64,000 nt of DNA, taken from contig CAJXYU010000003.1 of NCBI GenBank assembly GCA_913063155.1, positions 186,001-250,000 on the forward strand, written 5' to 3'. Origin of the DNA: an uncultured Desulfovibrio sp. Its GTDB lineage: Bacteria; Desulfobacterota; Desulfovibrionia; Desulfovibrionales; Desulfovibrionaceae. The translations under genes were made by a program, and so were the position numbers. Within the stretch, counting starts at the first letter, position 1, and every line of letters begins with the position of its first letter. Below the pieces are notes generated by a model. It made no database searches and was not told the DNA's origin. It was given only the letters and a program-made list of their open reading frames with translations. Shown piece after piece: positions 32,290-53,376 of this stretch.

Positions 32290-33294
32290 CTAACAAATTC
32301 TGGGCAATTGTTCGCCTTCCAGCATATTGAGCAGCCGCTTGCCGCCAAGCTTGGTGATCATGACCACCTTGCCGGGGTTGGCATCGGTTACGGCGCCGAT
32401 ACGGCATGCGTCCCTGCCCAACTCGTCGGCATGCATGATCTCCAAGGCCTGCTCGGCGTGCTCCTCGGGAAGAATACACAGAAACTTGCCCTCGTTGGCC
32501 AGATAGAGCGGATCGAGACCAAGGAAGGAACAGCCGCCGCTCACCTCGGACCGGACTGGAATGGCTCCTTCCTCCAACTCGCAACAGACATTGGAAGAAC
32601 TTGAAATCTCGTTCATGGTCGTAGCCAGGCCTCCGCGGGTCGGGTCGCGCAACACGTGCACATCGGGCAGTTCGCGCACCAGCTTCACCAGCAAATGGTT
32701 GAGCCCTGCGGAATCGGACTGTACACCGGCCTCGAACTCCAGTCCCTCACGAGTGCCCAGAATGGTCAGCCCGTGATCGCCCATAGTGCCGCTGAGCAGG
32801 ATGGCGTCACCGACTCTGGCCCGGTCGCCGCTGGGAGCCGGGTCCACGAATATCTCACCGATGCCCGTGGTATTGATGAAAATGCGGTCCACGGCCCCCT
32901 TGGGCACTACCTTGGTGTCGCCGGTGACGATCTTCACCCCGGCCTTGCGGGCCGCCTCACCCATGGAGGCGACGATCTTCTCCAGGTCGGCCATGGGCAG
33001 ACCTTCCTCGATGATATAGCCGCAGGTCATGTATTTGGGAACGGCCCCCATCATGGACACGTCGTTGACCGTGCCGTGTACGGCCAGGGAACCGATGTTG
33101 CCGCCCGGGAAAAAAATGGGGTCCACCGTAAAGGAATCGGTGCTCATGGCGATACGGCCGGAAACCGCAAGCTCTGCGGCGTCATTGAGCCGATTCAGTT
33201 CGTCGTTGCCGAAATGATCCAGGAAAAGTTCGGAGATGAGGCGCTGGGAGGCTCGGCCCCCGCTGCCGTAGTCGAGAAGGACTTTGTCACTCAT
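32290..33294 (-). CDS. hypE: Hydrogenase maturation protein HypE
   Basis: Carbamoyl dehydratase that makes the cyanide ligand of [NiFe] hydrogenases. 334 residues with a PurM-like fold: N-terminal LLDYGSGGRASQRLISELF, ATP site region GTMGDHGLTILGTREGLEF, and the C-terminal tail LPRIC whose terminal Cys334 carries the thiocarboxamide. It starts two bases after the hypD stop. HypF and HypC, its partners, are not in this window. Confidence 0.97.
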   Translation of the reverse strand: MSDKVLLDYGSGGRASQRLISELFLDHFGNDELNRLNDAAELAVSGRIAMSTDSFTVDPIFFPGGNIGSLAVHGTVNDVSMMGAVPKYMTCGYIIEEGLPMADLEKIVASMGEAARKAGVKIVTGDTKVVPKGAVDRIFINTTGIGEIFVDPAPSGDRARVGDAILLSGTMGDHGLTILGTREGLEFEAGVQSDSAGLNHLLVKLVRELPDVHVLRDPTRGGLATTMNEISSSSNVCCELEEGAIPVRSEVSGGCSFLGLDPLYLANEGKFLCILPEEHAEQALEIMHADELGRDACRIGAVTDANPGKVVMITKLGGKRLLNMLEGEQLPRIC

Positions 33295-33296
33295 GA

Positions 33297-34391
33297 TCAG
33301 TCAACCTTGTATTTGTAGTAGGCGGCGCAACTGCCCTCGGTGGAAACCATGCATGGCCCCACGGGATTGGCCGGGGTACAGGCCTTTTTGAACAGCGGAC
33401 ATTGGTCAGGGCTGAGGATGCCCTTGAGCACCTGACCGCACTTGCAACCCGGCAGGGGCGGTGCTTCGGTGATCTCGACGCCGAATTCGCGTTTGGCGTC
33501 CATGTCGGCCCATTCCTCGCGAATTTCCAAGCCACTGCCCGGAATCAGGCCGATGCCGCGCCACAGGGCGTCCGAAATCTCAAACACGTCGTACAGCACC
33601 TCACGAGCCTTGGCGTTGCCTTCGTCGGAAACCGCACGGCGGTAGTTGTTGGCCACATGAGCCTCGCCCTTGTTGCGCCACCGGACCATGTCAAGCAGGG
33701 ACTGAAGAATGTCCACGGGCTCGAACCCGGTGACGATGGCGCTGCGGTCGTAGTCGGCGGCAATATAGTTGTAGGGCTCAAGACCGATGACCGTGGAAAC
33801 GTGGCCGGGCAAAATAAAACCGTCGATACGCGTAGCCGTGTCGTCCATGAGCGCGGCCAGGGCCACGGGCACCGTCTTGTGAAACGGCAGGACGCGGAAA
33901 TTGGAAATCCCCTGCGCGCGGGCCATGGTCATGGTGGCGGCGATGGTCGGCGCCGTGGTCTCAAACCCCACGCCCAGAAACACGACCGTGTCATCCGGGT
34001 TCTCTTTGGCGATCTTCAGGGCGTCAAAGGGCGAATAGATGACGCTGACGCGTGCGCCGTCGGCTTGTGCGGCCTTGAGATTGCGACCTCCGTGCCCGGG
34101 AACGCGCATGAGGTCCCCGAAAGTGGCGATGATCACGTCGTCGCGCCCGGCCAGGTCCAGGAAGGCATTGACCTCGGATTCATGGGTGACGCAGACGGGA
34201 CAGCCCGGACCGCTCAGGTGCACAATGCCTTCCGGCAGCAAGGACCGCAACCCGCTCTGGAAGATGGCTACGGTATGGGTGCCGCAGACCTCCATGAAGC
34301 GGAGCTCCCCCTCCAGCTCCTTGTCCAGTTTTTCGAGCAGCGCCCTGCACAGCTCGGGGTCACGAAATCTATCAAGAAGTTTCAGGCTCAA
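33297..34391 (-). CDS. hypD: Hydrogenase maturation protein HypD
   Basis: Iron-sulfur scaffold that assembles Fe(CN)2CO. 364 residues. Motifs: FMEVCGTHTVAIFQSGL (the CGTHT site), SGPGCPVCVTHESEV, GFETTAPT and a cysteine-rich C-terminus (PGCKCGQVLKG, CPLF, CTPANPVGPC, GSCAAYYKYK) that binds the 4Fe-4S cluster. The only plausible start is a TTG at 34389-34391, with GAGG seven bases upstream; an in-frame stop lies close before it. A structured leader with its own promoter precedes the gene. Confidence 0.95.
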   Translation of the reverse strand: MSLKLLDRFRDPELCRALLEKLDKELEGELRFMEVCGTHTVAIFQSGLRSLLPEGIVHLSGPGCPVCVTHESEVNAFLDLAGRDDVIIATFGDLMRVPGHGGRNLKAAQADGARVSVIYSPFDALKIAKENPDDTVVFLGVGFETTAPTIAATMTMARAQGISNFRVLPFHKTVPVALAALMDDTATRIDGFILPGHVSTVIGLEPYNYIAADYDRSAIVTGFEPVDILQSLLDMVRWRNKGEAHVANNYRRAVSDEGNAKAREVLYDVFEISDALWRGIGLIPGSGLEIREEWADMDAKREFGVEITEAPPLPGCKCGQVLKGILSPDQCPLFKKACTPANPVGPCMVSTEGSCAAYYKYKVD

Positions 34392-34409
34392 CTCCCCACC
34401 TCACACTGC

Positions 34410-34529
34410 TTAAGGTTCAGCCGTCAACGGCATGCCTTCCCGGGGCGCGGACATAAAAAAAGCAACCCTGCCAGACAGTTGAACAGGCAGGGCGCCTATG
34501 TGTTCAACCATGGAGCCCGGAAGTTGCTT
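34410..34529 (-). promoter_or_regulatory. Structured hypD leader with interleaved helices and terminator (candidate riboregulator)
   Basis: In transcript order the minus strand gives AAGCAAC (34529-34523), GTTGAACA (34508-34501), CCCTGCC (34492-34486), TGTTCAAC (34485-34478), GGCAGGG (34472-34466) and GTTGCTT (34466-34460) merging into a run of seven T. The first pairs with the last; the second with the fourth; the third with the fifth. The last two pairings interleave, so they are either exclusive (antiterminator against terminator) or form a pseudoknot. A 33-codon reading frame (34410-34511) runs through the hairpin and may be accidental. No known riboswitch class was recognised. Confidence 0.55.
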
Positions 34530-34550
34530 GCATCAGCATGTCAATGAGGA

Positions 34551-34579
34551 ATCATATACGGAAGCGCCATGCGAAGCAA
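34551..34579 (-). promoter_or_regulatory. Candidate promoter of the hypDE leader
   Basis: Minus-strand TTGCTT (34574-34579), 17-base spacer, TATGAT (34551-34556; five of six). It lies between the dsrC terminator and the structured leader and predicts a transcript starting near 34544. Confidence 0.55.
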
Positions 34580-34592
34580 ATGGGAAAGGCAA

Positions 34593-34625
34593 CAAAAAAG
34601 GGACGAAAGCTTACGCTTTCGTCCC
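34593..34625 (-). terminator. Rho-independent terminator after dsrC
   Basis: Perfect 11-bp stem GGGACGAAAGC/GCTTTCGTCCC with a four-base loop and TTTTTT on the minus strand, 24 bases after the dsrC stop. Confidence 0.92.
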
Positions 34626-34648
34626 TTGAGTCTCCACATTTCTGCGAA

Positions 34649-34966
34649 TTAGACGCAGCCGGTGGGCTTGGGCAGGCCAGCCATTTTACAGGCTCCCTTG
34701 CCAGGTCCGGACGGGAACAGTTCGTAGATTTGCTTCAGCTTGAAGCCGGTGACCTTGGAAAGAATGCGGACCATCGGAGCGATGCCGTTCTTCTTGTAGT
34801 AGTCCTGCAGGAAGTCGATGACCTTCTGGTGATCGTCGGTCAGTTCCTTGATGCCTTCGGAGTCCTTCACGTAGTCAACCCACTCAGGGCACCAGCTGTC
34901 GAACTGGAGCAGGAAACCGTCTTCGTCGACCTCAAACTGTTTGCCCTCGAATTCTACTACTGCCAT
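34649..34966 (-). CDS. dsrC: Dissimilatory sulfite reductase physiological partner DsrC
   Basis: Small redox sulfur carrier of 105 residues that takes the sulfite-derived sulfur from DsrAB as a trisulfide and passes it to DsrMKJOP. The C-terminal arm reads GACKMAGLPKPTGCV: Cys93 and the penultimate Cys104, eleven residues apart, both needed for a true DsrC rather than a TusE. N-terminus MAVVEFEGKQFEVDEDGF with GGAGG eight bases upstream. Alone between terminator and promoter region, not next to dsrAB, as is common in this group. Confidence 0.97.
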   Translation of the reverse strand: MAVVEFEGKQFEVDEDGFLLQFDSWCPEWVDYVKDSEGIKELTDDHQKVIDFLQDYYKKNGIAPMVRILSKVTGFKLKQIYELFPSGPGKGACKMAGLPKPTGCV

Positions 34967-53121: not shown

Positions 53122-53146
53122 CAGGGAAAGCCCCCCCGAATAGAAG
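53118..53146 (+). promoter_or_regulatory. Promoter of the cobalamin operon
   Basis: TTGACA (53118-53123, overlapping the cheA stop codon), 17-base spacer, TAGAAG (53141-53146). It lies directly before the riboswitch aptamer. Confidence 0.6.
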
Positions 53147-53149
53147 AAA

Positions 53150-53312
53150 ACTGCTCCAGGCGCCCGCAAGGGCTTGCAAGGGAATCCCGTTGAAATCGGG
53201 AGCGGACCCGCCGCCGTGAACCCTGTTGATCGCTGTCGGAAAGAGCCACTGGGAAACCGGGAAGGTCGGCAAGCGTAGGGGGAGCCGGAAGACCTGCCTG
53301 CAGCGTGTCCAA
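53150..53312 (+). promoter_or_regulatory. Cobalamin riboswitch aptamer
   Basis: Clear B12-box architecture: AAGGGAAT, GAAATCGGGAGCGGACCCGC then CGCCGTGA, GCCACTGGGAAACCGGGAAG, then GTCGGCAAGCG and GAGCCGGAAGACCTGCC. These are the conserved junction and L5/B12-box elements of the cobalamin class, in the right order. It precedes cbiK and the importer genes and should shut them off when cobalamin is plentiful. Confidence 0.93.
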
Positions 53313-53376
53313 GTTCCGCCATGGCGACAACGGGGCTACTTGTCCGCCATGAGCCTGCGAAGGGAAAAAACGGCGT

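Follow-up and report, generated by a model that had tools for sequence, protein, structure and literature searches.

The trp, pyr, and riboswitch leaders are terminator-type leader attenuators, and preQ1 and SAM-II are H-type pseudoknot riboswitches. A kept antiterminator or switch is required of an attenuator that is regulated, not of one that is constitutive. We analyzed the leader upstream of hypD in the window (the whole 64-kb stretch of DNA considered here, from the genome that we call G000), together with its counterpart in one relative, G023. Like the trp, pyr, and riboswitch leaders, it presents promoter, leader, terminator, ribosome-binding site, and gene in that order; unlike them, it lacks a known aptamer, an antiterminator that both species keep, and a leader peptide with signs of selection. 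The H-type riboswitches share with it the interleaving of two of its helices (2 and 3) in G000, but no Rfam family matches, helix 2 is not kept in G023, and a 5-nt loop would have to cross 8 pairs. In both species the leader resembles an intrinsic (Rho-independent) terminator, with a GC-rich stem and a T-rich tail directly after it, although it differs from the terminators found behind genes in lying inside a leader, in its loop of 13 nt in G000, and in a T-run broken by two non-T bases. Leader terminators are a known kind of element, and the hypD leader looks like a new, lineage-restricted case. A narrow search of the open-access literature, as far as its texts were available, yielded nothing on hyp genes being attenuated in these bacteria.

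Layout of the locus and the hypD promoter

On the minus strand, the window carries dsrC, a terminator hairpin, a promoter, a leader of 159 nt, hypD, and hypE, in this order. The preliminary description of this DNA had placed the leader between dsrC and hypD, and Pfam confirmed the identity of both flanking genes. The name HypE for the gene that follows is one that we presume from this gene order. The features are as follows (positions in the window).

34649-34966, minus strand: dsrC, the upstream gene, 105 aa (Pfam DsrC PF04358, E 2.5e-36)
34598-34627, minus strand: dsrC terminator hairpin, then a T-run (consensus scan; hairpin and tail 85% identical in G023)
34551-34579, minus strand: hypD promoter, TTGCTT (34579-34574), N17, TATGAT (34556-34551); 84% identical in G023
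34528-34543, minus strand: conserved leader start, TGACATGCTGNTGCAA; 15 of 16 positions identical in G023
34419-34539 (approximate), minus strand: extra leader piece of ~108 bases, its ends placed by eye; ~102-115 nt longer than in 31 genomes
34460-34529, minus strand: helix 1, AAGCAAC (34529-34523) with GTTGCTT (34466-34460); 4 of 7 pairs in G023, not kept
34478-34508, minus strand: helix 2, GTTGAACA (34508-34501) with TGTTCAAC (34485-34478); 5 of 8 pairs in G023, not kept
34455-34492, minus strand: putative intrinsic terminator, helix 3 (CCCTGCC 34492-34486 with GGCAGGG 34472-34466) and a T-rich tail (9 T of 11, with seven T at 34461-34455); kept in G023
34392-34418, minus strand: ribosome-binding region, GAGGTGGGGAG then TTG; stretch 86% identical in G023
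33297-34391, minus strand: hypD, start codon TTG at 34391 (Pfam HypD PF01924, E 1.1e-144)
32290-33294, minus strand: presumed hypE of AIRS type, which follows hypD in the same orientation (Pfam AIRS and AIRS_C)

The promoter-like pair TTGCTT-N17-TATGAT is present as it had been described, and its pattern is kept throughout the genus. When we used the HypD of the window as a query (E 1e-50), 33 of the 36 genus genomes proved to have the protein; all 33 carry TTG-N20-TATG upstream of hypD, and 32 carry the stricter TTGC-N19-TATG. These counts leave out G026, G031, and G033, which are the genus genomes without HypD, as well as second hypD copies in G014, G017, and G002. A consensus promoter scan did not list the pair, which has 8 of 12 matches and just 3 of 6 in the first hexamer; support for this promoter comes from its conservation across the genus. 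Neither the scan nor inspection by eye found a second promoter between the terminator and hypD.

The second hypD copies (L141, L142, and L143 in G014, G017, and G002, respectively) are without the promoter found ahead of the first copies and lie directly 3' of a short gene that, by eye, resembles hypC. G026, G031, and G033, listed as 99-100% complete, have no HypD either by Pfam PF01924 or by the query above, although the NiFe hydrogenase large-subunit family is matched 3, 4, and 3 times in them, in part by incomplete matches. Among the matches listed in a scan of the genome contigs for HypD (the best 80 of 553), the named genomes that have HypD or the leader in common with members of the genus are Pseudodesulfovibrio and Salidesulfovibrio brasiliensis.

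Helices and putative terminator in G000 and G023

The preliminary description had drawn three perfect helices with their arms in the order 1-2-3-2'-3'-1', followed by seven T, and had pointed out that helices 2 and 3 interleave. The letters of the minus strand bear out both statements for G000. Helices 1 and 3 are not independent, because they have base 34466 in common and because two T of the T-run belong to helix 1. Counting disjoint perfect helices of at least 7 pairs, with 1 nt of overlap allowed, we shuffled the 99-nt region 5000 times with dinucleotides preserved and found three of them in 1 shuffle and an interleaved pair in 24. When the window was cut into 2557 overlapping segments of 99 nt, 1 had three helices and 10 had an interleaved pair, so a single triple is no surprise at this scale. 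As the region had been selected from 64 kb, the three helices taken alone are weak evidence.

Folding of the leader gave an energy z of -2.52, with 2 of 200 shuffles equally good. The structure predicted to be most stable combines helices 1 and 2 in G000 (-32.1 kcal/mol, versus -24.8 kcal/mol when helix 3 is enforced), while in G023 it includes helix 3 (-24.0 kcal/mol). The fold of helices 1 and 2 also ends in GTTGCTT and then T in G000, so that both folds could terminate; the G000 sequence thus gives no obvious sign of a switch between stop and read-through. By these predictions, a role of the helix 1 and 2 fold as an antiterminator is likewise not obvious.

Of the three pairings, the alignment with G023 kept helix 3, with 7 of 7 pairs when its 5' arm is slid by 1 nt (one T-G pair; 5 of 7 in strict columns), and broke the other two (4/7 in helix 1; 5/8 in helix 2, with a longest run of 2). 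Identity between the two sequences changes along the region. It amounts to 84% of 31 columns in the promoter segment, 69% of 29 at the start of the leader, where helix 1 has its 5' arm, 46% of 37 in the middle, which contains the 5' arms of both helix 2 and helix 3, 81% of 31 in the terminator 3' half, which includes the 3' arms of all three helices, 41% of 37 in the stretch behind the terminator, and 86% of 29 in the ribosome-binding region; at fourfold sites it is 124/180 (69%) in hypD and 38/44 in dsrC. This pattern fits selection on the promoter, the terminator, and the ribosome-binding region and not on helices 1 and 2. Helix 3 is kept in full even though identity is 46% in the middle stretch, in which its 5' arm lies, compared to 69% at the hypD fourfold sites. 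The apparent constraint on the terminator comes from one pairwise comparison, that of its two carriers. With the two sequences aligned, pairing involves 81% of cells and, in slid controls, 33-50%, but the structure came from one of these rows, which in itself favors it; three pairs have changed on both sides, a number reached by 58 of 500 shuffles, and covariation across two sequences has no power.

In both species, a stable GC-rich hairpin is followed directly by a T-rich stretch, which is the sequence signature of an intrinsic terminator. The terminator hairpin has a predicted energy of -14.8 kcal/mol in G000 and -16.0 kcal/mol in G023. For the best hairpin preceding at least 7 T of 11, the values are -17.9 and -14.4 kcal/mol, respectively, and an equally good combination of hairpin and T-rich tail occurred in 3/1000 and 10/1000 shuffles of the leader; a hairpin at least as stable as -10 kcal/mol preceded a T-rich tail in 58/1000 and 38/1000. 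The five bases TTGTC stand between the stem and the unbroken T-run in G023, and this gap may weaken its terminator. A consensus terminator scan with a loop limit of 8 did not list the hairpin, the loop of which is 13 nt, and returned 2 terminator-like sites in the region, fewer than the shuffle mean of 2.8.

Distribution of the putative terminator and of the extra leader piece

We screened 37 leaders for a hairpin followed by a T-tail, namely those of the 33 genus genomes that bear HypD plus L061, L062, L063, and L136, with eight A appended to each leader so that short ones could score. L061, L062, and L063 share HypD and leader with L042, L057, and L058, and L136 shares its leader with L146 (G009). 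No comparable leader terminator was found in 31 of the 33 HypD-bearing genomes, and the sole leader in the screen to show anything beside those of G000 and G023 was L046, with a weak hairpin of -6.0. Spacing tells the same story: the distance from the -10 hexamer to the start codon is 47-57 nt in 31 of 33 genomes, 159 in G000, and 162 in G023, and a long leader with a hairpin occurs in these two only.

DNA searches with the leader agree. The match in G023 has 72% identity (E 4e-19). Of 60 genomes, our own among them, 47 had at least one match with E no higher than 1, and the best of those in the other 58 reached E 0.007 over 22 bases. At E 1e-4, the leader DNA was detected in 2 of 288 genomes of the family, G000 itself and G023. 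We rejected the idea of a dispersed repeat, as leader patterns at 0 mismatches occur only here in G000 and once in G023; that the leader might be a piece of the second dsrC copy was rejected as well. At 3 mismatches, the leader pattern has 5 places in G000, 0 in G023, 3 in G017, 4 in G014, and 5 in G009, and a reversed control pattern has 0-2 per genome; apart from the two exact matches, these places look like background.

G000 and G023 are not grouped alone on the HypD tree. A constrained tree holding them together was not rejected (p-AU 0.121, 33 rows after L064, L066, and L067 had been dropped), and therefore a single gain of the extra piece and an older origin followed by loss in G017 and G014 both remain. 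The short leaders upstream of hypD in these two genomes contain T-runs, of 7 in L033 (G017) and of 6 in L034 (G014), which possibly represent remnants of a lost terminator tail.

Readings of the hypD leader

Between an attenuator and a pseudoknotted aptamer, the two forms that the preliminary description had offered, the geometry of the former stands and the latter is not supported. What we propose, and hold to be probable with considerable room for doubt, is a simple transcription attenuator, made up of the conserved hypD promoter and then of an intrinsic terminator that, among the genomes examined, occurs in G000 and G023 only. This reading is supported because promoter, terminator, and hypD follow one another in the sequence as in an attenuator, and because the terminator helix and the T-rich tail are kept in G023. 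Polymerase starting from the hypD promoter would often release a short RNA after ~90 nt, and the remaining transcription would read through into hypDE and supply HypD. We infer that termination in cells would lower hypDE expression in this way; the attenuator would set the hypDE level and may also regulate it. Against it speaks that, in G000, a fold other than the terminator is predicted to be the most stable, though that fold too ends at the T-run. Furthermore, the 31 of 33 relatives without the terminator argue against an important regulator.

A new pseudoknotted or switching aptamer that controls hypDE is very unlikely, although several observations lean its way: the three perfect interleaved helices and the fold z in G000, a terminator that could serve as expression platform, the conserved leader start TGACATGCTGNTGCAA, and the share of pairing cells in the two-row alignment, with its bias toward the row that supplied the structure. 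Against these stand the breakage of helices 1 and 2 in G023 and the location of the helix 2 5' arm within the stretch of 46% identity; the absence of the element from 31 of 33 HypD-bearing genus genomes and its presence in 2 of 288 family genomes; and the ease with which shuffles reach three both-sided pair changes. No family matched the leader in Rfam, whether the whole window was searched at gathering score or 34392-34640 to E 10, in agreement with the earlier statement that no known riboswitch class was recognizable here. With two sequences, to call the aptamer refuted would be too strong. Its milder relative, a young, lineage-specific, regulated attenuator in which the leader, through TGACATGCTGNTGCAA, would sense some state tied to hydrogenase maturation or sulfur metabolism and let polymerase into hypDE, by a refolding that differs between species, we consider decidedly unlikely. 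No competing antiterminator or switch is kept in G023, the single relative available, where helices 1 and 2 are broken, and inspection by eye noted no protein-binding motif in the leader. Attenuation by a ribosome translating a leader peptide is the least credible reading and appears extremely improbable. By eye, both species have a short reading frame that starts from one conserved ATG (34539), with 11 codons in G000 and 10 in G023, and the G000 stop falls within the 5' arm of helix 2; however, 6 of 10 comparable codons differ, all 6 changing the amino acid, so this comparison by eye gives no sign of selection as protein. In addition, there is no run of one amino acid and no ribosome-binding sequence, and a transcript start near 34544 would leave ~5 nt before the ATG.

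The stretch from promoter to terminator has a fitting size for a small regulatory RNA, and its 5' end and terminator are conserved around a diverged middle, which is how a terminated product of ~90 nt from the shared hypD promoter might look; yet this promoter serves hypD genus-wide, 31 of 33 genomes lack such a terminator, and the RNA has no known target and no Rfam match, all of which makes this quite unlikely. It is unlikely, too, that the hairpin and T-run are a neutral leftover that hardly terminates, in a spacer grown by chance. That would account for its absence in 31 of 33 genomes, for the interrupted T-run of G023, and for the free evolution of much of the extra piece, but not for terminator arms and tail that are kept when their neighbors are not and that are rare in shuffles of both species. 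If the attenuator that we favor terminates in cells, it would be a lineage-restricted damping of transcription upstream of a maturation gene that most relatives examined appear to express from a bare promoter, and a clean case in which to ask how attenuators arise or vanish. A riboswitch would matter more; the evidence does not lean there.

Three minor observations concern the surroundings. A BjrC68 match seen in the Rfam search (E 0.00016) falls on the dsrC terminator and scores 24.6 bits, below the gathering score of 39. A second dsrC copy in G000 (L160, G000:C4:119919-120233) encodes a protein 98% identical to that of the window copy; by eye, it precedes a gene resembling ribosomal protein L31, where the window copy precedes hypD, and two full-length copies also exist in G023, G017, G015, G031, and G009. 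Elsewhere in the window, at 53141-53315 on the plus strand, lies a cobalamin riboswitch (Rfam RF00174, 82.3 bits).
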